Source: Parabacteroides faecalis
GTDB lineage: Bacteria > Bacteroidota > Bacteroidia > Bacteroidales > Tannerellaceae
DNA: 41,287 nt
Direction of reading: 5' to 3'
NCBI RefSeq assembly: GCF_022809355.1
Contig: NZ_JAKZMM010000036.1
Location: 1-41,287, forward strand
The position numbers and the translations under genes were made by a program. This document shows, in pieces, positions 14,575 through 36,087 of this stretch (position 1 is its first letter; each line of letters begins with the position of its first letter). Below the pieces are notes generated by a model that worked only from the letters and a program-made list of their open reading frames with translations, did no database searches and had not been told where the DNA came from.

Positions 14575-14658
14575 ATTCGCCCAGGGCGAATATATAAACT
14601 GCACTAGCGAATACATATTCGCCTAGGGTGAACATATATTCAACAAGGGCGAATAAAC
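14575..14658. repeat. four-unit 21-bp palindrome array (array A)
   Basis: Units start at 14575, 14596, 14617 and 14638, exactly 21 bp apart. Unit 1 contains a perfect 17-nt palindrome, ATTCGCCCAGGGCGAAT, and units 3 and 4 are degenerate versions (ATTCGCCTAGGGTGAAC, ATTCAACAAGGGCGAAT). Unit 2 keeps mainly the right arm (GCGAAT). Four AT-rich bases separate successive 17-nt cores. There are no unique spacers and no translated product, so this is neither a CRISPR array nor part of a gene. Confidence 0.8.
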
Positions 14659-14730
14659 TTTTCTTGCAGACATCTTGAAGTATTTTTCACTAAAAAAGGA
14701 GAAAAAGAAAACAGTATTCAAAGTTTTTAT

Positions 14731-14738
14731 TACCTTTG
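14731..14738 (+). promoter_or_regulatory. -7 element for the 2-oxoacid oxidoreductase operon
   Basis: TACCTTTG is an exact TAnnTTTG match, 43 bp upstream of the first ATG (14782), predicting a leader near 40 nt. No clear -33 box is seen at the usual spacing, which would fit a promoter needing an activator. Confidence 0.6.
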
Positions 14739-14781
14739 GCAACCGAATAAAAGTGTTACAATCGTTTAATCATAAAGGTAT

Positions 14782-15012
14782 ATGGCAAAATTCAGAGGCG
14801 CCGTCGTAGTCAATACAGAGCGGTGTAAAGGCTGTAATCTTTGCGTAGTAGCCTGTCCGGCCGATGTATTGGAACTACACCCGCGGGAAGTAAACAACAA
14901 AGGTTACCATTATGTATATATGAAGCATCCCGACAACTGCATCGGGTGTGCAAGTTGTGGATTAGTATGTCCGGACGGATGTTTAACGATCTATAAAAAG
15001 AAAATTGATTGA
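14782..15012 (+). CDS. 2-oxoacid:ferredoxin oxidoreductase, delta (ferredoxin) subunit
   Basis: A 76-aa dicluster ferredoxin subunit. The two 4Fe-4S motifs are complete: C15-x2-C18-x2-C21-x3-C25-P and C53-x2-C56-x2-C59-x3-C63-P. It carries electrons between the thiamine-containing core and soluble ferredoxin in four-subunit KorDABC/VorDABC-type enzymes. It is first in the operon, with the alpha subunit starting 3 bp after its stop. The enzyme reversibly converts a 2-oxoacid plus CoA to acyl-CoA, CO2 and reduced ferredoxin. Whether the acid is 2-oxoglutarate or a branched-chain 2-oxoacid cannot be told from this subunit. Confidence 0.92.
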   Translation: MAKFRGAVVVNTERCKGCNLCVVACPADVLELHPREVNNKGYHYVYMKHPDNCIGCASCGLVCPDGCLTIYKKKID

Positions 15013-15015
15013 CCT

Positions 15016-16098
15016 ATGGCTGAAGAGATAAAACTTATGAAGGGCAACGAGGCAATCGCCCGTGCAGCTATCCGCTATGGTGTGGACGGATATTTCGGTT
15101 ATCCTATCACTCCACAGTCGGAAGTCCTGGAAACACTCATGGCTGAAATGCCGTGGGAAACAACTGGTATGGTGGTTTTGCAGGCAGAGAGTGAAGTAGC
15201 AGCTATTAATATGGTATATGGCGGAGCCGGAACCGGTAAAAGAGTCATGACATCTTCGTCAAGTCCGGGCGTCAGTCTGAAGCAAGAAGGTATTTCTTAC
15301 CTGGCAGGTGCCGAACTTCCTTGTCTGATTGTAAACGTCATGCGTGGAGGTCCGGGTTTAGGAACCATTCAGCCCAGTCAGGCCGATTATTTCCAGACTG
15401 TAAAAGGTGGCGGACACGGAGATTACCGGTTAATCGCTTTGGCTCCTTCATCCGTACAGGAAATGGCAGACTTCGTAGGCCTTGGTTTTGAATTAGCATT
15501 CAAGTATCGGAATCCGGCTATTATTCTGGCCGACGGAATCGTTGGGCAGATGATGGAAAAAGTAGTACTTCCTCCTTTCCATCCGCGCCGTACCGAAGAA
15601 GAAATCATTGCAGAATGTCCATGGGCAGTACAAGGTAAAAAGGCAAACCGCAAGCCGAACATCATCACTTCTTTGGAATTAGATCCGGCTCGCATGGAAG
15701 AAAACAACATCCGTTTCCAGGCTAAATACCGTCAGATAGAAGAAAACGAAGTCCGTTACGAAGAATTCATGTGCGAAGATGCCGAATATCTGCTGATCGC
15801 CTTTGGTTCGTCGGCTCGTATCTGCCAAAAGGCTGTTGAATTGGCCCGCGCTGAAGGTATCAAACTCGGATTACTTCGTCCGATCACCTTGTGGCCGTTC
15901 CCGACAAAGCAAATTGCCCGTTATGCAGATCAGGTAAAAGGTATGCTATCTGTTGAGCTGAACGCCGGACAAATGGTAGAAGATGTTCGTCTGGCCGTTG
16001 AATGTCGTGTGAAAGTAGAACACTTCGGTCGCTTGGGTGGAATCGTATTCACTCCGAATGAAGTATTAGATGCTTTGAAAGAGAAAATCATCGGATAA
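15016..16098 (+). CDS. 2-oxoacid:ferredoxin oxidoreductase, alpha subunit (VorB/KorA)
   Basis: A 360-aa subunit of the anaerobic 2-oxoacid:ferredoxin oxidoreductase. The N-terminal pyrimidine-binding domain is marked by GNEAIARAAIRYGVDGYFGYPITPQ-type sequence (about residues 9-33) and TSSSSPGVSLKQEG (about 79-92). The C-terminal domain II follows from about residue 255 (YLLIAFGSSARICQKAVE). Homologues are annotated as 3-methyl-2-oxobutanoate dehydrogenase subunit VorB or 2-oxoglutarate ferredoxin oxidoreductase subunit alpha; sequence reading alone does not decide. It is 3 bp behind the ferredoxin subunit and 5 bp ahead of a small membrane protein gene. Confidence 0.92.
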   Translation: MAEEIKLMKGNEAIARAAIRYGVDGYFGYPITPQSEVLETLMAEMPWETTGMVVLQAESEVAAINMVYGGAGTGKRVMTSSSSPGVSLKQEGISYLAGAELPCLIVNVMRGGPGLGTIQPSQADYFQTVKGGGHGDYRLIALAPSSVQEMADFVGLGFELAFKYRNPAIILADGIVGQMMEKVVLPPFHPRRTEEEIIAECPWAVQGKKANRKPNIITSLELDPARMEENNIRFQAKYRQIEENEVRYEEFMCEDAEYLLIAFGSSARICQKAVELARAEGIKLGLLRPITLWPFPTKQIARYADQVKGMLSVELNAGQMVEDVRLAVECRVKVEHFGRLGGIVFTPNEVLDALKEKIIG

Positions 16099-16103
16099 AA
16101 GCC

Positions 16104-16277
16104 ATGATGCGAGGAAGCAAATTAGATGAAATACTGACTCTGTTGTTCATGCTTTTGGCAATAGGGACGGTTGTATGTTTCTTTCTGGGCGCAGCCTATC
16201 GGACCGAAGTACTTGTTATCGGAGGTATCGCTGTGGTGATCCGGATCGCACAATACATACTAAGATATTTTTATTAA
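16104..16277 (+). CDS. 57-aa two-helix membrane protein inside the oxidoreductase operon
   Basis: A short gene starting ATG at 16104 and ending TAA at 16277. It is easy to miss because of its size. The product starts MMRGSKLDEILTLLFML and has two hydrophobic segments (about residues 9-31 and 36-52) joined by a short polar turn (AYRTE), with a basic, aromatic C-terminus (RYFY). It begins 5 bp after the alpha-subunit stop and ends 19 bp before the beta-subunit ATG, so it is transcribed with the enzyme. The likely topology is a hairpin in the inner membrane. A role in tethering the enzyme to the membrane is inference only; I know of no named family. Confidence 0.78.
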   Translation: MMRGSKLDEILTLLFMLLAIGTVVCFFLGAAYRTEVLVIGGIAVVIRIAQYILRYFY

Positions 16278-16296
16278 AGAAGAAGCTGGATTGATT

Positions 16297-17061
16297 ATGG
16301 AAATAAACGAAATCATAAAACCGGAAAACTTGGTATATGAAAAGCCCAAGTTAATGAACGACAATCCGATGCACTACTGCCCCGGTTGCAGTCATGGTGT
16401 CATCCACAAGCTTATTGCTGAGGTGATTGCCGAAATGGGAATGGAAGACAAGACTATAGGTGTGTCTCCGGTAGGCTGCGCAGTGTTTGCCTACAATTAT
16501 ATAGATATTGACTGGGAAGAAGCAGCCCACGGACGTGCGCCAGCCATTGCAACAGCCATCAAAAGACTGAATCCGTCGAAGATGGTATTCACTTATCAGG
16601 GCGACGGCGACTTGGCTGCTATCGGTACAGCAGAAACGATCCACGCAGCTAACCGCGGAGAGAATATTGTAATTATCTTCGTCAACAACGCCATCTATGG
16701 TATGACTGGCGGACAAATGGCTCCGACAACCTTGGTTGGCATGAAGACTGCCACTTGTCCTTACGGCCGTAACGTAGCACTTAATGGCTATCCTTTGAAG
16801 ATCAGCAACCTGTTGGCCGAACTCGAAGGTACTTGTCTGGTAACTCGTCAAAGCGTACACAACGCGGCTGCCGTACGGAAAGCCAAGAAAATGTTACGCA
16901 AGGCATTCGAAAACTCTATGGCTGGAAAAGGAACTTCGGTAGTCGAATTTGTTTCGACTTGTTCTTCTGGTTGGAAGATGTCGCCCGAACAAGCCAACAA
17001 ATGGATGGAAGAAAACATGTTCCCCTTCTATCCGCTGGGTGATTTAAAGAATGTGGAATAA
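16297..17061 (+). CDS. 2-oxoacid:ferredoxin oxidoreductase, beta (TPP-binding) subunit
   Basis: A 254-aa thiamine-pyrophosphate-binding subunit. The TPP/Mg motif is visible as G102-D-G-D105 followed by N130-N131 (VNNAIYGMTGGQ). A Cys pair CPGCSHG (28-34) is typical of this subunit family. I prefer the ATG at 16297 over an in-frame TTG six bases upstream, because MEINEIIKPENL is the usual kind of beginning and ATG dominates in this genome. It follows the 57-aa membrane protein gene and precedes the gamma subunit by 15 bp. Confidence 0.92.
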   Translation: MEINEIIKPENLVYEKPKLMNDNPMHYCPGCSHGVIHKLIAEVIAEMGMEDKTIGVSPVGCAVFAYNYIDIDWEEAAHGRAPAIATAIKRLNPSKMVFTYQGDGDLAAIGTAETIHAANRGENIVIIFVNNAIYGMTGGQMAPTTLVGMKTATCPYGRNVALNGYPLKISNLLAELEGTCLVTRQSVHNAAAVRKAKKMLRKAFENSMAGKGTSVVEFVSTCSSGWKMSPEQANKWMEENMFPFYPLGDLKNVE

Positions 17062-17076
17062 TAAACGGAAAAAGAG

Positions 17077-17619
17077 ATGAAACACGAAATAATTATAGCA
17101 GGATTTGGTGGTCAGGGAGTCTTGTCAATGGGTAAGATTCTGGCTTATTCCGGACTAATGGAAGGCAAAGAAGTAACCTGGATGCCTTCTTACGGACCCG
17201 AACAACGCGGTGGAACAGCCAATGTAACCGTGATTTTGAGCGATGATCCGATCAGTTCTCCGATTCTGAACGAATACGATATCGCCATCATTCTGAACCA
17301 GCCCTCACTCGATAAGTTCGAAAGCAAAGTAAAGCCGGGCGGTATCCTGATTTATGACGGCTACGGCATTCACTCAGAAATCAAACGCAAAGACATTCAG
17401 GTCTATCGCGTAGATGCCATGGATGCAGCAGCCGAAATGAATAATGCAAAAGCTTTCAACATGCTGATCTTAGGTGGTCTGCTGAAAGTTGTTCCGATGG
17501 TAAAGATGGAAAATGTACTGTTAGGTTTGAAGAAATCATTACCCGAACGGCATCATAACCTGATTCCGATGAACGAAGCAGCCATCCTCAAAGGCATGGA
17601 GATCATTCAGAAAGTCTGA
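17077..17619 (+). CDS. 2-oxoacid:ferredoxin oxidoreductase, gamma subunit
   Basis: A 180-aa gamma-domain protein with the Gly-rich start G9-F-G-G-Q-G14 and the GPEQRGGTANVTV segment (about residues 47-59) that is characteristic of the POR/KOR gamma family; this domain helps bind coenzyme A. It completes the delta-alpha-(membrane protein)-beta-gamma set. A strong terminator begins 23 bp after its stop, so the operon ends here. Confidence 0.93.
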   Translation: MKHEIIIAGFGGQGVLSMGKILAYSGLMEGKEVTWMPSYGPEQRGGTANVTVILSDDPISSPILNEYDIAIILNQPSLDKFESKVKPGGILIYDGYGIHSEIKRKDIQVYRVDAMDAAAEMNNAKAFNMLILGGLLKVVPMVKMENVLLGLKKSLPERHHNLIPMNEAAILKGMEIIQKV

Positions 17620-17642
17620 GTTCGACAAAAAATGATAAAGAT

Positions 17643-17675
17643 AAGGCGTTTCTTTCGAGAGAAACGCCTTTTTTA
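17643..17675 (+). terminator. Rho-independent terminator of the oxidoreductase operon
   Basis: AAGGCGTTTCT (17643-17653) and AGAAACGCCTT (17660-17670) form a perfect 11-bp stem with a TTCGAG loop, followed by TTTT (17671-17674). The T-run abuts the promoter of the next gene. Confidence 0.92.
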
Positions 17676-17683
17676 TATCTTTG
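17653..17683 (+). promoter_or_regulatory. promoter of the porin gene, overlapping the terminator
   Basis: -7 element TATCTTTG at 17676-17683, 5 bp before the ATG at 17689. A 3-of-4 match to the -33 TTTG box (TTTC, 17653-17656) sits 19 bp upstream, inside the preceding terminator hairpin. With the usual offset the transcript would start at or within 2 nt of the ATG, giving a leaderless mRNA. Confidence 0.65.
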
Positions 17684-17688
17684 CCCCG

Positions 17689-19761
17689 ATGAAACGCAGT
17701 TTGTATTTATTCATATTGACTCTTATACCCACATGTCTTCTTGCGCAAGCTCCGCGAGGAGGCAAAGGTGGATTTTCTCTATCAAACTTATCCAAAGGAA
17801 GCAATAAGGTTCCGGATAGTTTGCTGATTGCCGATAGTACTGAACTTAAAAGTAAGAAAGTTATTGCTTATCGCCTGACACCATTGTTGGGTGATTCTTA
17901 TATGGCTCCTATGGATACCAGTATCCTCAATACAGCCAACAGTACTTTAGTAGAAGGGAAAGGGCTGGCGATCGGTTATCTGGCGAATCTTGGATCGGCA
18001 GCTCAGACACGTATCTTCTCAGAACGGAAGGAAGCACGCGACTTTATCTTTGCCGATGCTTACGATTACTATATCACAACACCCGAAAATGCCCGCTTCT
18101 ATGATACTAAAACGCCTTTCACCGACATTATGTACACAACGGGTGGAAGCAGTACCAACAAGGAAGAGCAATTGGTCGGTACATTAGCCATCAACTTTGG
18201 GAAGAAAATCAACGTGGGTGGAGATTTCGACTATATCTATGGCCGTGGTCATTATAATTCCAACGGAAACAAACTCGTCAATTACCGCGTTTTCGGCAGT
18301 TATCGTTCTGACCGTTATGAATTAAATGCTTACTTCAGAGGGCTCAATTATGTAACACACGAAAACGGTGGCTTGACAAACGATGCCGTATTGACAAATC
18401 CGGATGATTATGCCGAAGGGAAAAAACAGATGATGTCGAAAGACTTTCCGGTCAAATACACCGATGTTTTCAACCGTATCCAGGGAAAAGAACTATTCCT
18501 GACTCATCGTTATAATCTCGGTTTTATCCGCGAACTCGATGAAACGGACGAAGAAGGTTATGCCAAAGAAGTATTCGTTCCGGTCTCAAGTATCATTCAT
18601 ACCTTTCAGTATGAAGACATGAACCGGCAGTTTACGGCACCCAACAGCACAGGTATCGACACTCTCTATAATCAAGGTATGCCATTTAATTATGATGAGA
18701 ACCTCAATGACCTTACCTATTACTGGCAAATGAAGAATACATTTGCTTTGTCGCTGCGGGAAGGATTCCAAAACTGGGTTAAATTCGGACTGACAGCTTT
18801 CATAGACCTTGAAAAACGTCGTTACCAGATGCAGGATGGCAAACGAGATTACACACAAGAAGGGAATTCCAGCCAAAGTTCCTTCTCTTCTCCTTTTATA
18901 CAAGGATCAAGTATTGCCACCTACGATGAATTCTCGACCTTCATTGGAGCAGAACTTTACAAACGACAAGGTAAACTCCTCACCTACAACGCCAGAGGCG
19001 AACTCTGTGTAGTGGGTGATGATGTAGGTGAATTTCGTGCCAATGGTGAATTACAGACTTCATTCAAGCTCTTCAAGAAAGATGCGTATATCAAAGCGAA
19101 TGCGTATATTAAGAATACAACGCCGGCATTCTTCCAGCGGCATTATCATTCGCGCTATTTCTGGTGGGATAAAGACTTGAACAATATACAACAGTTTTAT
19201 GCCGGAGGTGAAATCAATTTAGCTTCGACAGAAACACGTATCTCTGCAGGAGTCGAAAGTATTCAGAATTATGTTTACTTCGGAAAGAATGGAGAACCGG
19301 AACAACACGATAGTAACATTCAGGTAATCACTGCCCGTCTCAAGCAAGATTTCCATTTTCGGGCTTTAGGTTGGGAAAACGAACTGGCTTATCAGATCAG
19401 TAGTAACCAAAGTGTTCTTCCGCTGCCCGACTTAAGTGTATATACCAACTTATACCTGAAGTTCAAACTGGCCAAGGTTTTGAGTGTTCAGATCGGAGCA
19501 GATATGCACTACAACACGGCTTATTATGCGCCTTATTATGAGGCAGCCACCCAACAGTTTCAGGTACAGGACGAAGTGAAAGTGGGTAATTATCCACTTA
19601 TCAATGCCTATGTCAATTTCCATTTGAAGCAAGCACGTTTCTTCGTCACTGCCTACAACCTGAGCAGTAAGTTTGTTGCCCCCAATTATTTCTCACTGGC
19701 ACACTATCCGCTGAATCCGATGGTATTGAAGATGGGAGTTGCCGTACGATTCAATAACTGA
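17689..19761 (+). CDS. putative porin, Porin_10-like
   Basis: A 690-aa outer-membrane protein. The start at 17689 gives a clear signal peptide (KRSLYLFILTLIPTCLLAQ, residues 2-20). An in-frame ATG at 17632 lies upstream of the terminator and promoter and is rejected. The body is rich in aromatic and polar alternation, Tyr/Asn/Phe-rich strands and long loops, and ends in a strand with LKMGVAVRFNN. Length and style fit the Bacteroidota putative porin family (Porin_10). The stop overlaps the next gene's start by one base. Substrate not predictable; the co-transcribed solute-binding protein may share it. Confidence 0.82.
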   Translation: MKRSLYLFILTLIPTCLLAQAPRGGKGGFSLSNLSKGSNKVPDSLLIADSTELKSKKVIAYRLTPLLGDSYMAPMDTSILNTANSTLVEGKGLAIGYLANLGSAAQTRIFSERKEARDFIFADAYDYYITTPENARFYDTKTPFTDIMYTTGGSSTNKEEQLVGTLAINFGKKINVGGDFDYIYGRGHYNSNGNKLVNYRVFGSYRSDRYELNAYFRGLNYVTHENGGLTNDAVLTNPDDYAEGKKQMMSKDFPVKYTDVFNRIQGKELFLTHRYNLGFIRELDETDEEGYAKEVFVPVSSIIHTFQYEDMNRQFTAPNSTGIDTLYNQGMPFNYDENLNDLTYYWQMKNTFALSLREGFQNWVKFGLTAFIDLEKRRYQMQDGKRDYTQEGNSSQSSFSSPFIQGSSIATYDEFSTFIGAELYKRQGKLLTYNARGELCVVGDDVGEFRANGELQTSFKLFKKDAYIKANAYIKNTTPAFFQRHYHSRYFWWDKDLNNIQQFYAGGEINLASTETRISAGVESIQNYVYFGKNGEPEQHDSNIQVITARLKQDFHFRALGWENELAYQISSNQSVLPLPDLSVYTNLYLKFKLAKVLSVQIGADMHYNTAYYAPYYEAATQQFQVQDEVKVGNYPLINAYVNFHLKQARFFVTAYNLSSKFVAPNYFSLAHYPLNPMVLKMGVAVRFNN

Positions 19762-20600
19762 TGGGAATGAAAAAGACACGGAAAATCCTAGTTGTTTATT
19801 GTATTCTTCTTGTGCTTGTCGTTGCCACAATGATCTCATTATGGCCATACCGGGAGAAAAAACAACCGTTACAACCACGGGACTATCCGGAGATCTGCAA
19901 TGAAGGAATCTTGCGTGTCGTAACAGAATATAACCCTACGGGATACTTTGTGGACGGCGATACAATACTTGGCTTTCAATACGAATTATGCCAGGCCATT
20001 GCTCTCATATCCGGATTAGAAGTTCAGATGCAGCTTGAAATGACACTCGATAAAAGTTTCGATCTATTGAACCAACAAACAGTTGATATCATAGCCCGTA
20101 ACATTCCTATCACGACGGAAGTAAAGGAACACTACCTGTTTACAGATCCGATCATTCTTAACCGTCAAGTCTTGGTACAGCGTACAGCAGAAGCTAATCA
20201 GGGTATCAAACCAATCCGAAACCAGTTACATTTGGGAAAGAAAGAATTGTATCTTCCCAAGAACTCTCCTGCTTTATTACGGATCCGAAACCTAGAGCAT
20301 GAGATCGGTGATACAATTTATATCCACGAAGACGAGTTGTATTCTGATGAGCAACTTATTATTCTGGTCGCCAAAGGAGACATAGACTATGCTGTCTGTA
20401 ACCAGCAAAATGCAGAGCAACTGCTCAGCCAATATCCCGAAATAGATATCCAAACAGATATTAGCTTTACTCAACTTGAATCATGGGTTATGCGCAATGA
20501 TTCTCCTATCTTGCGTGATAGCCTCAATCATTGGTTAGAGCAACTCAAAGCCAATGGAACTTACAAGAAAATCTATAATCAGTACTACAATCAGAAATAA
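19761..20600 (+). CDS. transporter substrate-binding domain protein (SBP_bac_3)
   Basis: A 279-aa protein with an N-terminal hydrophobic anchor (about residues 8-27, no lipobox) followed by a periplasmic solute-binding domain of family 3. Visible family features are GILRVVTEYNPTGYFVDGDTILGFQYELCQAIA (read as the first lobe, about residues 47-80), DIIARNIPITTEVKEHYLFTDP in the middle and GDIDYAVCNQQNAEQL in the second lobe. This resembles the N-terminal module of MltF-type proteins, but the lytic transglycosylase domain is missing. Its ATG overlaps the porin stop by one base, implying translational coupling. No ABC permease or ATPase is nearby, so it may sense or scavenge rather than feed a classical transporter. 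Confidence 0.82.
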   Translation: MGMKKTRKILVVYCILLVLVVATMISLWPYREKKQPLQPRDYPEICNEGILRVVTEYNPTGYFVDGDTILGFQYELCQAIALISGLEVQMQLEMTLDKSFDLLNQQTVDIIARNIPITTEVKEHYLFTDPIILNRQVLVQRTAEANQGIKPIRNQLHLGKKELYLPKNSPALLRIRNLEHEIGDTIYIHEDELYSDEQLIILVAKGDIDYAVCNQQNAEQLLSQYPEIDIQTDISFTQLESWVMRNDSPILRDSLNHWLEQLKANGTYKKIYNQYYNQK

Positions 20601-20606
20601 ATGATG

Positions 20607-20614
20607 TATCTTTG
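20607..20614 (+). promoter_or_regulatory. -7 element for the DEAD-box helicase
   Basis: TATCTTTG, an exact consensus match, 19 bp upstream of the ATG at 20634. The -33 box is not obvious. Confidence 0.55.
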
Positions 20615-20633
20615 AACGCATTTAAGTACGGAT

Positions 20634-21896
20634 ATGAGATTTGACGAATTAAATTTAGAAGATGCTATTTTGGACGGACTCGACGCCATGAACTTTCAAG
20701 AGGCGACTCCGGTACAAGAACAAACGATTCCAGTTATTTTAGCTAAGAAAGATATTATAGCTTGTGCACAAACCGGCACAGGAAAGACTGCGGCCTATGT
20801 ATTGCCGATCATTAACGAGTTGAGCAAAGGTGGATTCTCAGAAAATGCAGTTAATGCCGTTATTATGGCTCCAACTCGTGAGTTAGCACAACAAATTGAT
20901 CAACAGATTGCGGGCTTTACATATTTCGTTCCGATCTCTGCTGTCGCTATTTATGGAGGAACAGACGGCGTTGCTTGGGAACAACAACGACGCGGACTTG
21001 AAATGGGCGCAGACATTGTGATTGCAACGCCAGGACGATTGCTTTCATACATTAAGCTTGGCACAGTCGATCTCTCACAAGTCTCTTATTTTGTACTTGA
21101 CGAAGCAGATAGAATGCTTGATATGGGTTTCTATGACGACATCATGCAAATCTACAAACAACTACCTCCAACTTGTCAGATCATCATGTTTTCGGCGACG
21201 ATGCCACCGAAGATCCGGACACTTGCAGAAACAATTCTAAAGAATCCGGAAGAAATTCAACTGGCTATTTCCCGTCCTCCGGAAACTATTATGCAGACAG
21301 CTTATATCTGTTATGATGCCCAAAAGATCAAAATTCTCGAAGATCTGTTCAGCAAAGCTCGCCCACAACGAGTAATCATTTTTGCTTCTGCTAAAGTTAA
21401 GGTGAAAGAACTGGCGAATACATTGAGTCGGATGAACTTTAACGTAGCACAAATGCACTCGGACTTGGAACAAGCGCAACGGGAAGAAGTCATGAAAGAC
21501 TTCAAGAACGGGAAAATAGATATCCTTGTAGCAACCGATGTCGTGGCTCGCGGTATAGATATCAATGATATTCGTCTGGTTGTTAACTTTGATATACCTC
21601 ATGATCCAGAAGATTATGTGCATCGCATCGGACGTACAGCTCGTGGTACAAACGGAGAAGGCTTAGCAATCACCTTTGTCTCACCCGAAGAACAATCCGG
21701 ATTCAAACGAATCGAAGACTTTTTGGGAAAACAAGTCTATAAAATACCCATCGATCCTTCATTTGGAGAAACTCCAGAATATAAGCCTGTCACCAGAAGC
21801 AGAAAGAAAGGTCGGTCACAGAAAGGAGGAAATACGTCTAGCAAAAGTCGTAAACGTCCGTCACGTAAATCCCAAAATCAGAAAAGTGCTTCCTAA
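20634..21896 (+). CDS. DEAD/DEAH-box ATP-dependent RNA helicase
   Basis: A 420-aa RNA helicase of the RhlE/DeaD type, acting in RNA remodelling (ribosome assembly, mRNA decay or cold adaptation in relatives). All core motifs are intact: Q-motif region near F21, AQTGTGKT (45-52), PTRELAQQ, DEADRMLDMGF, SAT, and HRIGRTAR near the end of the second RecA domain. The last 40 residues are a basic Lys/Arg/Ser-rich tail typical of RNA-binding extensions. It has its own -7 element and stands alone, convergent with fhs. Confidence 0.95.
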   Translation: MRFDELNLEDAILDGLDAMNFQEATPVQEQTIPVILAKKDIIACAQTGTGKTAAYVLPIINELSKGGFSENAVNAVIMAPTRELAQQIDQQIAGFTYFVPISAVAIYGGTDGVAWEQQRRGLEMGADIVIATPGRLLSYIKLGTVDLSQVSYFVLDEADRMLDMGFYDDIMQIYKQLPPTCQIIMFSATMPPKIRTLAETILKNPEEIQLAISRPPETIMQTAYICYDAQKIKILEDLFSKARPQRVIIFASAKVKVKELANTLSRMNFNVAQMHSDLEQAQREEVMKDFKNGKIDILVATDVVARGIDINDIRLVVNFDIPHDPEDYVHRIGRTARGTNGEGLAITFVSPEEQSGFKRIEDFLGKQVYKIPIDPSFGETPEYKPVTRSRKKGRSQKGGNTSSKSRKRPSRKSQNQKSAS

Positions 21897-21905
21897 CTAT
21901 ACAAA

Positions 21906-21958
21906 CAGAGGCCCGGAAACACAATTACTATTCAGCAAAATGTGTATCCGCGCCTCTG
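21906..21958. other. imperfect long hairpin between convergent genes
   Basis: CAGAGGC (21906-21912) pairs with GCCTCTG (21952-21958), and an inner ACACA/TGTGT pairing (21919-21923 / 21941-21945) is possible. It lies between the ends of the DEAD-box helicase gene and fhs. No T-run follows on either strand, so an ordinary intrinsic terminator is doubtful. Confidence 0.35.
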
Positions 21959-21985
21959 CACTCATTATAACAAAACCACTCGTAT

Positions 21986-23653: not shown

Positions 23654-23678
23654 ACCATTTATATAGGCTTATTTACAG

Positions 23679-23686
23679 CAAATGTA
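23679..23686 (-). promoter_or_regulatory. -7 element for fhs
   Basis: The minus strand reads TACATTTG, fitting TAnnTTTG, 26 bp upstream of the fhs ATG. No clear -33 box. Confidence 0.5.
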
Positions 23687-23739
23687 CACAAAATTCGCCA
23701 GTTACCTATGCTGTTTGCTTATACATTGCTACTCTTTCT

Positions 23740-26319: not shown

Positions 26320-26325
26320 ATTGTT

Positions 26326-27202: not shown

Positions 27203-27267
27203 AATCGCTAATTTATTATATTAATGATAATAAAAACTTTATATCGCTCTTCTTTTGTAAAACCATG

Positions 27268-27275
27268 CAAATATA
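27268..27275 (-). promoter_or_regulatory. -7 element for the NifU-like/GGGtGRT operon
   Basis: The minus strand reads TATATTTG, fitting TAnnTTTG, with a partial -33 match (ATTG at 27296-27299) 20 bp upstream. The ATG at 27202 is about 65 bp downstream, leaving a leader of roughly 60 nt. Confidence 0.6.
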
Positions 27276-27396
27276 AGAGTTTTTCTTTTTTCATGCAATA
27301 GCGTACAAAAGTTTGCAGAATAGAATAAAGATTCTTTACATACACTTTTTTAGGGAAGCTCTTCATTTTAAATATTTCACCCGCCGTATATTCTTT

Positions 27397-27480
27397 AGTT
27401 CACGTCGAGAATTACTTAGTTCACGCCGTGGTTTAAGTAGTTCTCGACGTGGATTACTTAGTTCACGCCGTGAACTAAAG
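27397..27480. repeat. four-unit 21-bp palindrome array (array B)
   Basis: Units begin with AGTTC at 27397, 27418, 27439 and 27460, exactly 21 bp apart. Unit 4 contains a perfect 17-nt palindrome, AGTTCACGCCGTGAACT; units 1-3 keep the left arm AGTTC(A/T)CG and carry a degenerate right arm. Four bases (ACTT or AAGT type) join successive 17-nt cores. Core sequence differs from array A, but unit count, period and 17+4 layout are the same. Confidence 0.82.
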
Positions 27481-27585
27481 AATTTGTAACCGGATTTATA
27501 TCTTTCTCCGGTTACCTCCGACAAAATGAATAGCGATTTTTGCAAAAATATCCGGCGGAATCCTTCGGCTTAGTAAAGTTTTTTG

Positions 27586-27593
27586 TAGGTTTG
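27586..27593 (+). promoter_or_regulatory. -7 element for cobQ
   Basis: TAGGTTTG fits TAnnTTTG, 29 bp upstream of the cobQ ATG. No -33 match found. Confidence 0.5.
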
Positions 27594-27622
27594 TCTCCGC
27601 AAAAAAAATAAAGAAACGACAC

Positions 27623-29143: not shown

Positions 29144-29627
29144 CAGGATAGACTTTCTCGAGCGACACGCATACGTGAGCGCCCAGCTGTGCCAGATAAA
29201 GCAACAAGTATTTCTTACGGATACGCCGGATTTTCCCGGAGACATGCTTCATCACCCCACAAACAATTTCAGCCTCTTCACCTTCCATCAGAGGGTGATT
29301 GGCTGCTTCTTCCAAGAAAGTACGAATAGAATCCAGTTCCTTTTCACGGACAACAGCCGGCTTACCATTATAATATACAATACGGGAAACGCCGGGAATG
29401 CGTAATAACTTATACAGATCTGTTTCGGCGCATTTCACAAATATATAAGAAGGGAATAAAGGAATATCCACAATTTTTACCCGATCCGACCATACCCGAG
29501 GCGATTTATGTAACGGAAGCCAGCAAATCACACCCATCCCCTGGATACGGCTTTCCACTTGTTTCTCGGCTCGTGGAGCAGTATATAGAACATACCATTT
29601 CTGATTATCTACTTCTGTCTGTTGCAT
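29127..29627 (-). CDS. UpxY-family transcription antiterminator (NusG paralogue)
   Basis: A 166-aa protein with an NGN domain: WYVLYTAPRAEKQVESRI (about residues 11-28), a VDIPLFPSYIFVK core (about 54-66) and a C-terminal region whose KOW fold is recognisable only by position. UpxY proteins are specialised NusG paralogues that act on the leader of the operon they head, usually capsular polysaccharide loci. I chose the ATG at 29627 because a -7 element (29657-29664, minus strand) lies between it and a longer frame that opens at 29762. Unusually, no polysaccharide genes follow: downstream is the convergent cobQ, whose 3' end overlaps by 17 bp. It is therefore an orphan, and its target is unknown. 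Confidence 0.85.
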   Translation of the reverse strand: MQQTEVDNQKWYVLYTAPRAEKQVESRIQGMGVICWLPLHKSPRVWSDRVKIVDIPLFPSYIFVKCAETDLYKLLRIPGVSRIVYYNGKPAVVREKELDSIRTFLEEAANHPLMEGEEAEIVCGVMKHVSGKIRRIRKKYLLLYLAQLGAHVCVSLEKVYPVNRIR

Positions 29628-29656
29628 TGCTTTCTGTTTTTCTTTCTTCCCAGCCA

Positions 29657-29664
29657 CAAAGGTA
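29657..29664 (-). promoter_or_regulatory. -7 element for the UpxY-type gene
   Basis: The minus strand reads TACCTTTG, an exact consensus match, 30 bp upstream of the chosen ATG. It argues against the longer start at 29762, which would be upstream of the transcript. Confidence 0.6.
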
Positions 29665-29816
29665 ACACTCCGATTCAAAATAACCGGTTTTCGACCCCGG
29701 AAAAACGTCTCAATTCCGAAAAGAAAAGAGAAATTCACGATTTTATGACAAATACACATCAAAGTAGAATTATTTTTTGTAACATTGCAACGTAATAAAC
29801 ACTTTTTACTATTACC

Positions 29817-31139
29817 ATGAACAGACGAAACTTTATACAGAAGACAGCTTTATCGGCTGTAGGTCTAGGTTTAGGACCGATCATCAGTTCTTCCTACTCA
29901 TCTATATACGGAGCTACTGCTCCCAGTAACAAGGTAAAAGTAGCCCTTATCGGTTGCAGAAGCATGGGATTTGCAGACTTAAATACATTTCTCCAATATC
30001 CGGAAGTGGAATGTGTCGCCCTGTGTGATGTAGATGATGAATGGCTGCAGAAGAGAGCCGGTGACGTAGAGAAGAAAACAGGGAAGAAAGTCCCTAACCT
30101 CTATAAAGACTGGCGTAAAGTCATTGACAACAAAGATGTGGATCTGGTCATCATCGGTACGCCCGATCATTGGCATTGTCTCCCGACAATCGAGGCTTGC
30201 CAAGCAGGAAAGGATGTTTATGTCGAAAAGCCGCTTTCGAATACCATCGAAGAATGTGATCTGATGGTAAAGGCAGCCCGTAAATATAATCGCATTGTAC
30301 AAGTCGGTCAGTGGCAACGTAGCGATCCGCACTGGGATGAAGCCGCCAATTTCCTGAAGAAAGGAGGAATAGGTCGTATCAGAACCGTTAAAGTATGGGC
30401 TTACCAAGACGGGAAACCAACTTTACCGGTAAAACCGGATTGTCCGCCTCCTGCCGGAGTCGATTATGATATGTGGTTAGGTCCGGCACCCAAGCGTCCG
30501 TTCAATCCGTATCGTTTCCATTATAACTTCCGCTTTTTCTGGGATTACGCCGGCGGATTGATGTCCGATTGGGGCGTGCATTTACTGGACTATGCTTTGG
30601 AAGGTATGCATGCAGACCTGCCCAGTCATGTATATGGCAGTGGAGGGAAATTCGCTTATCCGAATGATGCAATGGAAACGCCCGATACCCTGATGGCAAC
30701 TTATACCTATAAAGATTTCAATATCATTTGGGATCATGCCTGCGGCATTAACCATGGCTTATACGACCGCCGTGAAGGACTGGCTTTCTTTGGCGAGAAC
30801 GGAACATTAGTTCTTGACCGCGCCGGTTGGGAAGTAATCTCGGTTGTAGCCAATAAAGAAGCCCGCATGGAAGCCATTCCATTCAAGAAAGGTGAAGGGA
30901 AAGGTTTGTATAACCATGTAGGTAATATGTTGTCCTGCATCAAAAGCAGGGAATTACCCAACGCTGATATCGCAATCGGTGCCCGCGTAGCCAAGATGGC
31001 TCACTTGGCCAACATCTCTTGCCGGCTTGGCAGAGAAGTTAGATGGGATGATGAGAAACATCTCTTCATCAATGACGAAGAAGCTACTGCCCTATCGAAG
31101 GCTTATTACAGAGCTCCTTGGAAATTACCTGAATTGTAA
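29817..31139 (+). CDS. Gfo/Idh/MocA-family oxidoreductase with Tat-type leader
   Basis: A 440-aa NAD(P)-dependent sugar or cyclitol oxidoreductase family member. The N-terminus MNRRNFIQKTALSAVGLGLG has a twin-arginine motif (RRNFIQK) followed by a hydrophobic stretch, predicting folded export by the Tat route. The Rossmann motif follows at about 42-50 (VALIGCRSMGF, where the Gly pattern is slightly atypical). The EKPLSNTIEECDLMV segment (about 139-153) is the family's conserved Lys-Pro motif, and HYNFRFFWDYAGGLMSDWGVHLLD (read in parts) marks the substrate domain. Exported Bacteroidota members often act on glycans or glycosides. It precedes the CoA ligase gene by 19 bp; functional linkage is doubtful. 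Confidence 0.92.
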   Translation: MNRRNFIQKTALSAVGLGLGPIISSSYSSIYGATAPSNKVKVALIGCRSMGFADLNTFLQYPEVECVALCDVDDEWLQKRAGDVEKKTGKKVPNLYKDWRKVIDNKDVDLVIIGTPDHWHCLPTIEACQAGKDVYVEKPLSNTIEECDLMVKAARKYNRIVQVGQWQRSDPHWDEAANFLKKGGIGRIRTVKVWAYQDGKPTLPVKPDCPPPAGVDYDMWLGPAPKRPFNPYRFHYNFRFFWDYAGGLMSDWGVHLLDYALEGMHADLPSHVYGSGGKFAYPNDAMETPDTLMATYTYKDFNIIWDHACGINHGLYDRREGLAFFGENGTLVLDRAGWEVISVVANKEARMEAIPFKKGEGKGLYNHVGNMLSCIKSRELPNADIAIGARVAKMAHLANISCRLGREVRWDDEKHLFINDEEATALSKAYYRAPWKLPEL

Positions 31140-31158
31140 AACAAAAATAATCGCATAT

Positions 31159-32463
31159 ATGGAATACTGGCAAAAAGACATCGAAACGATGGGACGCGAT
31201 CAGTTGCAGGAACTTCAACTGACGCGTCTGAAAGAGACCGTAAAACATGCGGCCAACTCTCCTTTCTACAAGGAAGTATTTGAGAAGAACGGAATCACAC
31301 CCGATTCTATCCAGACACTGGATGATTTACGGAAGATTCCATTTACTACCAAAAATGATTTACGCAGCCATTATCCGTTTGGAATGGCAGCCATACCTAT
31401 TCAGAAGTGTGTTCGTATCCATTCTTCAAGTGGTACGACCGGAAACCCGACAGTAGTACTTCACTCTGCCAAGGATTTGGATCAATGGGCAAACCAGGTA
31501 GCTCGCTGTATGTATATGGTCGGACTACGGGATACTGATGTTTTCCAGAACACATCCGGTTATGGTATGTTTACAGGAGGATTGGGATTCCAGTACGGAG
31601 CTGAACGTTTAGGAGCCTTGACCGTTCCGGCTGCAGCAGGAAATACCAAACGGCAGATCAAGTTCATTACCGACTTTGGTACGACTTGCCTTCATATCAT
31701 TCCCAGTTACGCTACCCGTCTGGCAGAAGTGATGTACGAGATGGGAATTGATCCACGCCGCGACACCAAACTGCATACCGTATGTATCGGAGCCGAACCG
31801 CACTCGGAAGAACAACGGAAACGTATCGAGCAATTGCTGGGTGTAAAGGCTTACAACTGTTTCGGTATGTCGGAAATGAACGGTCCGGGAGTAGCATTCG
31901 AATGTCCGGAACAAAACGGTCTTCACATTTGGGAAGATTATGTTATTCCTGAAATCATTAATCCGCAGACCTTGGAACCCGTTCCGGAAGGTGAGATCGG
32001 CGAATTGGTTTTAACTACGATTAATCGGGAAGCCATGCCATTGCTCCGCTATCGGACACGAGACCTGACCCGATTCATTCCGGGTGAATGTCCATGCGGT
32101 AGAACACATCGCCGTCTGGCCCGCTTCGTCGGTAGAAGTGATGATATGATCATTCTGAAGGGTGTCAATATCTTCCCGATCCAGATTGAGAAGATCTTGA
32201 TGAACTTCAAAGAACTGGGAAGTAATTATCTGATTACAATCGAGACAGTAGGTTATAACGACGAGATGCTGATCGAAGTAGAATTGAGCGACCTGTTCAC
32301 GGATGATTACAGTGCATTGCAGCGCTTGGCTAAGGAAGTAACCCGTCAGTTAAAAGATGAATTATTGTTGACACCACGCGTTAAGCTTGTAGGAAAAGGC
32401 TCATTACCTTCTGCCGAAGGTGGAAAAGCTGTCCGCGTAAAAGATTTAAGAAAGCTATGTTAA
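31159..32463 (+). CDS. paaK: phenylacetate--CoA ligase family protein
   Basis: A 434-aa adenylate-forming enzyme that activates an aryl acid (phenylacetate or an indole/aryl-acetate) with ATP and CoA. The P-loop-like motif HSSSGTTGNPTVV is at 88-100; the family's later YRTRDLTRF and LKGVNIFPIQIEKIL segments are present. I take the ATG at 31159 (MEYWQKDIETM), which is the usual family beginning; an in-frame start at 31027 lies inside the upstream gene. The ACT-domain gene follows after 36 bp, a common pairing. In relatives the pair sits with indolepyruvate:ferredoxin oxidoreductase genes, which are absent here. Confidence 0.93.
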   Translation: MEYWQKDIETMGRDQLQELQLTRLKETVKHAANSPFYKEVFEKNGITPDSIQTLDDLRKIPFTTKNDLRSHYPFGMAAIPIQKCVRIHSSSGTTGNPTVVLHSAKDLDQWANQVARCMYMVGLRDTDVFQNTSGYGMFTGGLGFQYGAERLGALTVPAAAGNTKRQIKFITDFGTTCLHIIPSYATRLAEVMYEMGIDPRRDTKLHTVCIGAEPHSEEQRKRIEQLLGVKAYNCFGMSEMNGPGVAFECPEQNGLHIWEDYVIPEIINPQTLEPVPEGEIGELVLTTINREAMPLLRYRTRDLTRFIPGECPCGRTHRRLARFVGRSDDMIILKGVNIFPIQIEKILMNFKELGSNYLITIETVGYNDEMLIEVELSDLFTDDYSALQRLAKEVTRQLKDELLLTPRVKLVGKGSLPSAEGGKAVRVKDLRKLC

Positions 32464-32499
32464 ATTGTTCATTCGTATCAATCCTAAATACTATCCGTT

Positions 32500-32928
32500 A
32501 TGACAGTCAATCAAATATCAATTTTCTTGGAAAACAAGTACGGCAAGTTGTCTGAAATACTGATGTTACTCGCCGAAGCCAAGATCCGGATCATTGCAGC
32601 TACTGTAGCTGATACCTCCGAATATGGTATTCTTCGTATCATCGTAAATGATCCGCAGCGGGCATTCAAGATTCTAAAGGAGAATAACGTCAGTGCCAAT
32701 CTGACGGACGTACTGGCCATTGTCACTCACTCTGAAGCTGCCGGATTTGCCCAAACGCTTCAGGCATTTACAAAAGCAGGACTGAGCATTGAATATATGT
32801 ACTGCTTCTCTATCAAAGACAAATCCATTCTGATCCTGCGAACCAACAACCGCGAGGCAGCGCGCGAAGTAATCCGCCGGCAGAATATGGAATATCTTAG
32901 TGAAAGTGATCTATTGAAGATGGATTAA
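32500..32928 (+). CDS. double-ACT-domain protein
   Basis: A 142-aa protein made of two ACT modules (about 1-68 and 70-142) with no catalytic domain. The first begins VNQISIFLENKYGKLSEILMLLAEAKI, a classic ACT beta-alpha start. ACT modules bind amino acids or similar small ligands. Pairing with an aryl-CoA ligase suggests sensing of an aromatic amino acid or its derivative, which is inference. It ends 7 bp before a bidirectional terminator. Confidence 0.92.
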   Translation: MTVNQISIFLENKYGKLSEILMLLAEAKIRIIAATVADTSEYGILRIIVNDPQRAFKILKENNVSANLTDVLAIVTHSEAAGFAQTLQAFTKAGLSIEYMYCFSIKDKSILILRTNNREAAREVIRRQNMEYLSESDLLKMD

Positions 32929-32935
32929 TACCAAC

Positions 32936-32964
32936 AAAAAAGGGAGCTAAAAGCTCCCTTTTTT
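32936..32964. terminator. bidirectional Rho-independent terminator
   Basis: GGGAGC (32942-32947) pairs with GCTCCC (32953-32958) around TAAAA, flanked by AAAAAA on the left and TTTTTT on the right, so it serves both the ACT gene (+) and the convergent outer-membrane protein gene (-). Confidence 0.93.
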
Positions 32965-32988
32965 ATCTTTATAACAAATACTCAATGA

Positions 32989-33462
32989 TTAGAAACAATA
33001 AGCGGCACGCAAAGCGATAAACGCCTGATCCAAATCCTTGATGATATTGTATTTTGCTTCCAGTCCTAATGAAAATTCAGGAGTTGCATAGACTTCTCCA
33101 CCCAAACCGATATTTGCACCGAAACGGGTAACGCCATCATGATGACCATCCCAATCCCAGAACGACATGCTGACACCAGCCAACGGATAGAATCCGAACA
33201 TACTACTCAGTTTAAACACATAGTGAGCATTCACGTCAATCATCCAGGCACTCACGCCATGGTTCTTTACCAGATAGGTCAACCCCGGATTCAATCGTAC
33301 TTCGTCAGTCAGACAATACCGGTAATCCAATCCTAAGGTGGCTTGTTCGCTATCGAATGCATACCCTAAATTAAAGCCGAATGAAGAACGGCCCTTATCC
33401 GCCTGAGCAAATACGGTTAAACTCAGGCAAATCATACTTAATACAAGAAATAACTTTTTCAT
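32989..33462 (-). CDS. small outer membrane beta-barrel protein
   Basis: A 157-aa protein with a signal peptide (KKLFLVLSMICLSLTVFAQA, residues 2-21) and about eight amphipathic strands rich in Gly and aromatics, ending ALRAAYCF with a terminal aromatic residue. The size fits an eight-stranded OmpX/OmpW-like or porin-family barrel. It lies 43 bp behind the C69 peptidase on the same strand and ends at a shared terminator. Function not predictable. Confidence 0.8.
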   Translation of the reverse strand: MKKLFLVLSMICLSLTVFAQADKGRSSFGFNLGYAFDSEQATLGLDYRYCLTDEVRLNPGLTYLVKNHGVSAWMIDVNAHYVFKLSSMFGFYPLAGVSMSFWDWDGHHDGVTRFGANIGLGGEVYATPEFSLGLEAKYNIIKDLDQAFIALRAAYCF

Positions 33463-33505
33463 ATCGCAGTTATTTTAATGAATAATAGGCCCTAATATAC
33501 GACTT

Positions 33506-35146
33506 TTATTTCACTTTCAAGCGTTCGCCGGCTGATTTTACGATAGCACGATAAAAATCTTCGCTGTATCCCGGTGAATCGGGTGCTGCACCCAAACCAT
33601 AACCATTGTCGAGGAACTTACCGTCTTTCTCTTTACGAGCCACACCGTCTGAATATTTCACGATCAGGAATTCTCCTAATTTCTTCCAGCGGTCAACGGA
33701 TTCATCGGCTGTTGTAGTGCTGTACCAGGTCAGGAACTTCGCCGCTTCTTTCGGATCTTTCTGATAGAGTTCGGAAGCAGCCTTGTCGATGGCGGGTTGC
33801 ATGTCCAGATAACCGTTTTCCAACTCAGACTGTACTTTGCGAAGGTCTCCAATCATCTGGTTATAGCGTCCGTATACCATATTAGCCACCCAGTTACGAA
33901 TCCAGAAAGCAGATGTCCATGAGAATTGCATCATGCTGCCATTTCCCTGGCGATAACATTCGGGCACGTCGGTTGATGAACAATAGATCGGTGTGAAAAC
34001 AGTCGTATTGGCATCATCGACAGCAAACCACAGTACACCACCAATGGCATCAGGAAGCCAACTACGCAATTGCGGAACGATGACGAATCCACTCTGCTGT
34101 GTTGAAATCGGACGTTCGTTTGTATAAGTTTCGCCATCTACTTTATAGGTAAGCGGACGGAAACGGTACGGTGCCTTGTACGGACCAGCTCCGGGATCAT
34201 TCGTCATGTCGAGTTCGGTACCTTCGTAGTGATCGCGCATCATATCACGCACATCGGCAACCGACAACTTCCGGTCGGGCTTGATATAAAGTGGCATTGG
34301 TTCAGCGTTCACATCACCTTTGGCAAAACCGAGGTACTTGCCCATATCCTTGTTATACTTGTTGAAGAAAGACCACACACGGGCTTCGCAGATACGAAGA
34401 GCACTGAAATCATACGGACAATAAGCTTTTGCAAAGCTGAAATCCTCATCCTTTCCGCTGAAGTATCCTTTCTCGCGGGCAAACGATACTACATCGGGCG
34501 AATACATACAGTTCTCTTTGTCGTCGAACGGTATTTGCTGGATGCGCGACTGGTTCGCGTGGGCTGCGATACAGTCATCAGGGATACGAATGGCAACCCA
34601 TACAGCGCCTTTATTTCCTGTACCTTTTCCTACCATCTCCATGATCCAAGCTTCATTTTTATCAGCAATCGAGAATGACTCGCCACCGCTATAGTAACCA
34701 TACTTAGCGACCAGATCGGTCATCACCTGGATAGCTTCGCGTGCAGACTTCGAACGCTGCAGGGCTACATAGATCAGGCTTCCATAATCCATGATACCGG
34801 TCGTATCAACCAGTTCAGGCCGTCCGCCAAAGGTACTTTCCGTGATTGCCACCTGGTGTTCATTCATATTCCCCACAACCGAGTAAGTCTGACGCACCTG
34901 CGGGATCTGTCCCAATGGTTTTCCCGTATCCCATTCAGTGATGTCGAGCATAGCTCCTTCGGGCCAGACAGCAGCCGGCCAGTGATACAACTCTCCGTAA
35001 AGGGTGTAAGAGTCGGCAGCATAACTGATCATCACCGAGCCATCGACAGAAGCCTTTTTCCCCACCAGGAGACCCGTACATGCCATCACTTCAGCGGTCG
35101 AAGCCAGACCGAAGCAGGCAGCTAATGTAATCCAAAACTTTTTCAT
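33506..35146 (-). CDS. C69-family dipeptidase
   Basis: A 546-aa secreted Ntn-hydrolase of peptidase family C69 (PepD/dipeptidase A). The signal sequence (about residues 1-22) ends at MA|CTGLLVGKKASVDGS, leaving C23 as the N-terminal nucleophile, as expected of the family. Later family features include YGYYSGGESFSIADKNEAWIMEMVGKG (read in parts, about residues 150-176). I chose the start at 35146, not an in-frame ATG 33 bases upstream, because a good promoter (35179-35210, minus strand) ends at the upstream candidate and the shorter form starts directly with the signal peptide. Likely a periplasmic peptide-degrading enzyme. Confidence 0.94.
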   Translation of the reverse strand: MKKFWITLAACFGLASTAEVMACTGLLVGKKASVDGSVMISYAADSYTLYGELYHWPAAVWPEGAMLDITEWDTGKPLGQIPQVRQTYSVVGNMNEHQVAITESTFGGRPELVDTTGIMDYGSLIYVALQRSKSAREAIQVMTDLVAKYGYYSGGESFSIADKNEAWIMEMVGKGTGNKGAVWVAIRIPDDCIAAHANQSRIQQIPFDDKENCMYSPDVVSFAREKGYFSGKDEDFSFAKAYCPYDFSALRICEARVWSFFNKYNKDMGKYLGFAKGDVNAEPMPLYIKPDRKLSVADVRDMMRDHYEGTELDMTNDPGAGPYKAPYRFRPLTYKVDGETYTNERPISTQQSGFVIVPQLRSWLPDAIGGVLWFAVDDANTTVFTPIYCSSTDVPECYRQGNGSMMQFSWTSAFWIRNWVANMVYGRYNQMIGDLRKVQSELENGYLDMQPAIDKAASELYQKDPKEAAKFLTWYSTTTADESVDRWKKLGEFLIVKYSDGVARKEKDGKFLDNGYGLGAAPDSPGYSEDFYRAIVKSAGERLKVK

Positions 35147-35178
35147 ATATTCTTGTTTTATGTATTTCTTTTTCCACA

Positions 35179-35210
35179 CAAAAGTAGATCATTCTTTGTT
35201 TTCTTGCAAA
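35179..35210 (-). promoter_or_regulatory. promoter of the C69 dipeptidase gene
   Basis: On the minus strand a -33 box TTTG (35207-35210) and a -7 box TACTTTTG (35179-35186) are separated by 20 bp, matching the Bacteroidota consensus at both elements. Its -33 half lies inside the end of the HU-like gene. Predicted leader about 29 nt. Confidence 0.72.
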
Positions 35211-35953
35211 TCGGCAACAACCAGTACCGAAGGCATTGTATAAACGGCCGGTGTATTCAGAGGTCTTGGGCTCGTCGTACACTGGCTCACCACACGCAGA
35301 TTATATTCTCCCTTCGGCAGATCCCGAGGTATCAAGGCGATAATATTCCGACGCGTACAACGGACAAACGACTCGGGTGGAATGTGCAAAACCACCTCCT
35401 CGGTTCCTGCCCGAAGCAGATAAAGGCCCCGCTCAGGAGAAGTTCCGTTCATCAACAGCATAGAACCGGTCAATGAAATGCTCAGCCCACGCGTAATCCG
35501 CTCATTGATCGTTCGGCTACCCGCATCTTCCACCGTGTAGATGGCCAACCGTGAAGCTGCTGCATCTGTTTCATGCAAAAGTGGGTCGGCCAACGCTTTC
35601 TTTAAACGCGGACTTAATGAGAAGCGAACTGTAGCCTCGTTCTTACGCCGGGCCTCGGGTTGGAGGCGATTGGTATCCCACAAGCCCGTCACACTGGGAG
35701 TCAGTATCCCTAACGGCAGATGAACCGACGAGCCGTCCAACAGGCAGTCTTCCATCTCATTAAACAAAGCGGTAGCTGCATGACGAAGTGTTTCGGCATT
35801 CAATCCGCACGCCTGGTCTTTCGCCAAACGCTCAATGATATCGTCGAGTGTATATGCACCCTTCAATACGACTTGCGGGAACAAACAACCCTCTGAAGGC
35901 TTTAAGTTTGACCGTACCAGTCTGATTTTCCATTCAGCTCTTTTCTTTCTCAT
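35189..35953 (-). CDS. HU-like DNA-binding protein with C-terminal DUF4469 domain
   Basis: A 254-aa protein. Residues about 1-120 match the atypical HU/IHF-like family of Bacteroidota (DIIERLAKD, TLRHAATALFNEMEDCLLDGSSVHLPLGILTPSVTG in parts), but the usual long DNA-binding arm is altered. Residues about 135-250 resemble the DUF4469 immunoglobulin-like domain (ISLTGSMLLMNG, GLYLLRAGTEE, LPKGEYNLRVVSQ). The paralogous family is common, and its role is unknown (nucleoid or surface association are both conceivable). It is divergent from ygiQ, across a region with array C, and is followed 42 bp later by the C69 gene. Confidence 0.82.
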   Translation of the reverse strand: MRKKRAEWKIRLVRSNLKPSEGCLFPQVVLKGAYTLDDIIERLAKDQACGLNAETLRHAATALFNEMEDCLLDGSSVHLPLGILTPSVTGLWDTNRLQPEARRKNEATVRFSLSPRLKKALADPLLHETDAAASRLAIYTVEDAGSRTINERITRGLSISLTGSMLLMNGTSPERGLYLLRAGTEEVVLHIPPESFVRCTRRNIIALIPRDLPKGEYNLRVVSQCTTSPRPLNTPAVYTMPSVLVVADLQENKE

Positions 35954-35984
35954 CTGTACAGCTTATTATTAGTTAATATCTTTA

Positions 35985-35992
35985 CAAAGATA
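35985..35992 (-). promoter_or_regulatory. -7 element for the HU-like gene
   Basis: The minus strand reads TATCTTTG, an exact match, 31 bp upstream of the ATG at 35953. Its upstream side runs directly into array C, so the array overlaps where a -33 box would be. Confidence 0.6.
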
Positions 35993-35999
35993 GAGAATT

Positions 36000-36087
36000 A
36001 TTCCAGAAAGAATATATTTTTATTCTTAGAAAGATAAATAAATATTCCAAGAAGAATATTTTATTATTCCAAGAAAAATAACAACTA
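36000..36087. repeat. four-unit 22-bp palindrome-like array (array C)
   Basis: Units begin with ATTC at 36000, 36022, 36044 and 36066, exactly 22 bp apart. The core is ATTC-N6-GAAT (ATTCCAGAAAGAAT, ATTCCAAGAAGAAT) in units 1 and 3 and degenerate in units 2 and 4; unit 3 extends to AATATTC/GAATATT arms. It is AT-rich throughout. It shows the same four-unit layout as arrays A and B, with a one-base longer period and a different core. Confidence 0.75.

Follow-up and report, generated by a model that had tools for sequence, protein, structure and literature searches.

Three palindrome arrays of the same layout, built on different cores, lie in one short stretch of the Parabacteroides faecalis genome, each between divergent genes. 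Are they local promoter features, or members of something that extends through the genome? An earlier note on this DNA took them for exactly four units each, stacked on one face of the helix as for a dimeric binding protein, and offered two origins, local homogenisation of units or a family of related elements with divergent specificities. We examined the window (the whole stretch analysed, 41,287 bp), its own genome and related genomes.

Results

The arrays at periods of 21, 21 and 22 bp are real, since a core-blind scan, which combines palindrome pairs over four units with the identity of neighbouring units at periods 14-30, returned exactly these three in the window (Table 1). The palindrome-plus-lag scores in the window are 10.1, 14.4 and 12.0 for types A, B and C. 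Tandem Repeats Finder lists arrays B and C (3.8 copies at 21 and 22 bp), with higher scores at 42 and 44 bp, and array A is absent from its list. The only known structured RNA in the window at the Rfam gathering score is a tRNA; separately, a 22-bp perfect direct duplication lies directly after the tRNA-Arg gene (41155-41199).

Table 1. Positions of the arrays and their flanks in the window.
Feature	Position	Strand	Description
Type A array	14575..14654	.	Four 17-bp palindromic units, period 21 bp, unit 2 degenerate; core ATTCGCCC/GGGCGAAT (direct reading and core-blind scan)
Type A left flank	14487..14574	.	Type B flank profile fits type A flanks at one register
Type A right flank	14655..14742	.	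Type B flank profile on type A flanks
Type B element, 94 bp	27390..27483	+	Four units, array proper 27397-27476, period 21 bp; ATTCTTT, four AGTTCACG-N-CGTGGATT-like units, AAAGAAT (terminal inverted repeat); linkers between units 4 bp, ACTT/AAGT
Type B left phased flank	27302..27389	.	A/T tracts at 22-bp intervals, with the right flank as mirror image
Type B right phased flank	27484..27571	.	Profile from 46 flanks of 23 type B copies
Type C array	about 35997..36080	.	Four ATTC-N6-GAAT units, period 22 bp

Mostly four-unit arrays occur in many core families, each of them dispersed. Type B has 25 places in its own genome, 23 of which match the window copy over at least 70 bp with 82-94% identity, the other two being short matches. 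Type A has 15 places (three short) and type C two, the window and one further copy (L040) with more than four units. Family D, with core AATTAATTCAC, has 17 places, several short, and the own-genome sample described below holds further cores, some present once or twice. Family G is found at no fewer than 40 places (the best 40 of 59 candidates), with terminal inverted repeats TTTTTGACA ... TGTCAAAAA, by which its copies were parsed, and AAAGCTTT linkers. Parsing of 29 G loci gave 25 distinct places, of which the 23 at exactly 86 bp were used, while the two 64-bp parses resemble four-unit copies with one worn end. We also parsed nine copies of type A and 22 of 30 loci of family K, which is found in congeners. 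Among the 23 type B loci parsed (L009-L031), 20 have four units, two have three and one has five, so that four is a strong mode but not the fixed number first supposed. These findings support the view of related elements that differ in specificity, many cores in one layout. They speak against an origin of each core by local homogenisation, since A, B and G each recur at many places in the genome. Two longer 23-bp tandem arrays of five or more units (L077:19620-19770 and L127:1690-1850) stand outside the four-unit pattern.

Abundance was estimated in a sample of 780,895 bp in 40 stretches, which took in most of contigs C1, C2, C3, C4 and C6 and one C33 stretch chosen for its type C copy. The core-blind scan found 38 arrays at periods 21-23 (18 at 21, 18 at 22 and 2 at 23), a further three at 14-16 and none at 17-20 or 24-30, against 0 arrays when each of the 40 stretches was resampled once with a second-order Markov model. 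Scaled to 4.3 Mb, this gives roughly 200 arrays per genome. Called gaps of at least 100 bp contain 32 of the 38. Lag analysis of gaps between 100 and 1500 bp, drawn from a listing of 200 gaps of at least 100 bp, picked out 13 at lag 21 (1 in shuffles) and 15 at lag 22 (0 in shuffles), with 12 and 11 at the doubled lags of 42 and 44; lags 16, 32, 40, 41 and 48 gave 9 gaps altogether (shuffles 0). The arrays are thus a genome-wide feature and not local promoter arrays.

The siting between divergent genes holds for all three window arrays but is no general rule. In gaps of 230-1500 bp in the own-genome sample, 27 of 96 carry an array: 7/30 divergent, 17/54 tandem and 3/12 convergent. At equal gap length this comparison shows no specificity for divergent promoters, and the siting of the three window arrays seems to be coincidental. 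Both neighbours were called for 80 of 90 catalogued arrays (46 tandem, 31 divergent, 3 convergent); the scarcity in convergent gaps (3/80 versus 31/200, P = 0.005) can be explained by the shorter length of such gaps. The gene adjoining array C (window 35189-35953, minus strand) encodes HU-DNA_bdg, HU-HIG and DUF4469 domains.

Type B copies are set in a wider rhythm. Across 46 flanks of 23 copies, A/T positions return at 22-bp steps away from the element, separated by G/C, and the left side mirrors the right: the A/T share is 100, 100 and 95% at +20 to +22, 100, 97 and 93% at +42 to +44, and 89, 93 and 82% at +64 to +66, and the rhythm reaches ~85 bp and has faded by about 88 bp. The 22-bp power exceeds that of all 2000 shifted controls. 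Scored leave-one-out, flank pairs reach a median of 19.8 bits, whereas none of ~760,000 genome positions exceeds 15.4; a quarter of the pairs are below 14 bits, a level that two genome positions reach. The flank sequences cannot be aligned between loci, and within them we found no within-locus repeat (lag-22 identity 0.316 versus 0.312 expected), no palindromes except for one marginal centre, at +8 (z = 3.1), and no pairing of left with right flanks (inverted identity 0.318 within loci versus 0.320 between loci).

This rhythm is partly common to other families. The B flank profile fits type A flanks best at offset 7 and next at 29 (18 flanks, nine copies) and family G best at offset 6, with the G profile in B at -6; in type A flanks the G profile misses the expected register (best offsets -10, -12 and -11). 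Family K flanks carry AAGTTTTC at +17 and +39. In 600 kb of six other congeners, the four best matches to the K flank profile lie two on and two beside arrays, while of the four best to the B profile the first alone adjoins an array. Among non-B arrays, those of period 21 have a weaker rhythm and those of period 22 almost none. In B and K, copies with more similar cores do not have more similar flanks, and close G copies have some flank sequence in common. At two orthologous sites in genomes G019 and G045, flank motif positions are kept at 55/88 versus 81/176 for other positions (P = 0.013); this is no demonstration of selection on the flanks, as unrelated copies give the same bias (0.53 versus 0.33).

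Type B units have conserved arms around a variable centre base. No arm covariation was found when Watson-Crick pairs were compared with column shuffles (z = 1.3 in B, -3.2 in G and -1.6 in K). One distinct unit stands at an inner position in 22/22 K arrays and 21/23 G arrays, and this inner unit of a different subtype gives the arrays a direction. In tandem contexts, 2 type B arrays run with transcription and 9 against (G 5/3, K 3/6), so array direction has no clear link to gene direction and RNA polarity was set aside. Conserved arms, a free centre, absence of covariation and two-turn spacing together point to dimers on double-stranded DNA, and the proposal of stacked dimers on one helix face gains from the phased flanks as well.

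The ends of the elements bear on how they may spread. Over 20 type B copies, the 15-bp ends pair in 283/300 cells, a terminal inverted repeat, and four G copies (L233, L238, L247 and L248) share ~30 bp beyond the core. A search for target-site duplications in 208 settings each gave nothing convincing for B, G or K arrays (best z 2.8, 2.0 and 3.8, the K value being a weak hint). The Y1/RAYT transposase domain PF01797 has 0 matches in the own genome, a draft 99.98% complete, while a control search found it in 5 of 14 named genomes; mobilisation by a RAYT was therefore rejected.

An insertion sequence with ends CAGGGCTGACGCATTACAA (L062:7615-8901) encodes a 392-aa DDE transposase with DDE_Tnp_1 and DDE_Tnp_1_assoc domains, which we take to be of the ISAs1 type. 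Of 10 distinct junctions, the majority of them found through searches for arrays, 8 have an end of the insertion sequence at or inside a G or D array; in the 781-kb sample this holds for 3 of 5 ends (one in a D-like array missed by the scan). The junctions are in L072, L237, L238, L249, L252 and L254, and four of them, counted by hand, fall 18-20 bp outside the G array edge. Several assembly contigs end in this type of insertion sequence.

Among relatives, the cores are narrowly distributed. Of 41 genomes, type B matches two, its own and, at a single weak place, G009, and type A matches its own alone; family G is present in 4 of 38 genus members: its own, G018 (five distant places), G021 (one) and G045 (one short place). 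Judged by sequence matches, the three tested cores (A, B and G) are restricted or almost restricted to their own species. Plasmids gave no match for B or G, and phages none for B. Four-unit arrays with other cores at 21-23 bp were found in 100-kb samples of the congeners G012, G013, G015 and G009 (raw scan without shuffles), several of the G009 matches resembling other tandem repeats; G018 and G006 had no array in one scan and two and one matches at 23 bp in another. Masked N runs account for the matches at period 30 in G015 and G018, and probably for those in G039, an artefact of the scan. Samples of 61-80 kb from each of five further families of the order (raw scan) gave one clear array, in G027 at 22 bp, and one weak match each in G026 and G039. 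Family K occupies at least 40 places in G045 (the best 40 of 85 candidates) and is also present in G019. By eye, G-like units centre on ACC-GGT in G018 and on ACA-TGT in P. faecalis, with the four units, layout and ends kept, the cores having changed together between the two genomes.

The genes flanking window loci A and B have matches at separate places in congeners (one genome per species). Upstream of the same two genes, arrays with other cores stand at 4 of 25 anchored congener loci (two without usable upstream sequence) and at 3 of the first 29. At L159/L156 and L180/L201, G019 and G045 both have K arrays upstream of these two genes, where P. faecalis has B and A; between G019 and G045 the K cores there are 83% and 89% identical and the flanks largely diverged. 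Neighbours of G045 arrays match neighbours of P. faecalis arrays in 6/59 cases versus 9/402 control genes (P = 0.007). We do not claim conserved sites with swapped cores on this basis, because two of the six were the route by which the K family came to light and conserved genes are favoured.

Discussion

Operator arrays of cooperatively stacked dimers consist of helically phased palindromes with a free centre. The arrays described here seem analogous to these in helical phase and free centre and would differ from them in their many cores and dozens of dispersed copies. REP/BIME sequences and REPINs with their RAYTs are described as clustered short intergenic palindromes, many per genome and in several families (PMC3733652, PMC3116915, PMC2817692), and REPs as targets of insertion sequences (PMC1525189). 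As far as the cited parts of these papers go, our arrays resemble them in all these respects, the ISAs1-type element in arrays being a parallel to insertion sequences that target REPs (PMC1525189). They differ in that most have four units spaced by two helix turns, in their phased flanks and, in a search of the own genome, in the absence of a Y1 transposase. Aligned copies of A, B and G show by eye no common GTAG/CGTC tag, and their linkers read ATAT-like (A), ACTT/AAGT (B) and AAGCTT (G). The BrickBuilt MITE of Porphyromonas gingivalis is intergenic, with 23-bp head-to-tail units of one sequence, small inverted-repeat ends and leader and tail segments; it has 19 copies in one strain, its unit number expands and contracts, and in the portions consulted the word palindrome is absent (PMC4596501). 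Compared with that account, our arrays are alike in intergenic siting, small inverted-repeat ends and units of about two turns, and unlike in that most have four palindromic units, one genome contains many cores and the flanks are phased; the BrickBuilt 23-bp unit, leader and tail, and GAGACCTTTGCA-like ends were not seen, the units and ends read here being different. Among known repeat families, tested features of REP/REPIN-RAYT and BrickBuilt are lacking, and the terminal inverted repeats of MITEs are present. No published description of these arrays was found in openly licensed PMC papers. We file them as a variant of dispersed intergenic palindromic repeats, apart from REP/REPIN and BrickBuilt, since each of these fails a tested feature.

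We consider it about evenly balanced whether the arrays are dispersed, fast-evolving platforms on double-stranded DNA for stacked dimers, spread in a REP/MITE-like manner. Each palindrome would be one dimer site with a free centre, four of which would stack on one face two turns apart and nucleate a cooperative nucleoprotein complex. This complex may then extend outward in register, by up to about four 22-bp steps per side, requiring mainly A/T at linker positions and G/C between. Families of one core each would be copied within a genome by a REP/MITE-like process, with the cores turning over rapidly from species to species and the geometry staying the same; any host role might lie in chromosome organisation or in control of neighbouring genes. 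Protein binding is the favoured reading. Beyond the unit structure, the restriction to periods of 21-23 bp, the single registers of the B profile in A and G, the K profile matches at arrays of congeners, the one distinct inner unit and the joint change of cores speak for the platform. Several results tell against it: the G profile misses the A register, the B profile is weak in congeners, non-B flanks are near-flat at 22 bp, close G copies are partly alike in their flanks, and predicted single-strand folding is strong (for example -47.4 kcal/mol, z = -9.8, for type B).

Such folding would be expected of hairpins acting in RNA as attenuators, processing or stability elements, and one strand of type B has G.T mismatches in excess of A.C (105 versus 22), an excess partly by construction because the copies had been oriented by that feature. 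Arms without covariation favour protein binding to the double strand over hairpins, however, and with the inconsistent polarity and the failure of left and right B flanks to pair they leave an RNA-level role highly improbable. A somewhat unlikely reading, to our mind, is that these are purely selfish MITE- or REPIN-like elements without host role, their palindromes being transposase sites and their flanks a target preference. It would account for dispersed families with terminal inverted repeats, for cores nearly confined to one species, for the mostly intergenic siting and for the likeness beyond the core among the four G copies and the closest G pairs. Against it stand the missing Y1/RAYT transposase, the want of convincing target duplications and the B flank scores, hard to obtain from random targets even though a quarter are low. 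We regard as improbable a nested replacement, in which new cores enter older arrays at their centre and the worn remnants of earlier cores make up the phased flanks. The flanks do have the core rhythm, in B and K their similarity does not depend on that of the cores, and K flanks hold, by eye only, TGCCTATGAAA-like stretches resembling arrays of G012 and G013; but B flanks carry no within-locus repeat signal, and a constant phase would demand exactly central insertion every time.

Returning to the stacked-dimer platform, we tentatively propose, as a possibility, a genus-wide class of element of ~260 bp set by geometry, whose core turns over together with a putative family of DNA-binding proteins. 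In the same tentative spirit, the class may be defined by four dimer palindromes and phased flanks with a lasting outer register, and may occupy more than a quarter of the longer gaps. If this holds, a large fraction of the longer non-coding gaps of this genome, and perhaps of the genus, would belong to one undescribed nucleoprotein system, which sequence comparison alone would miss because its geometry is kept and its sequence is not. It would also offer a test bed for the joint change of a DNA-binding specificity and its dozens of sites.
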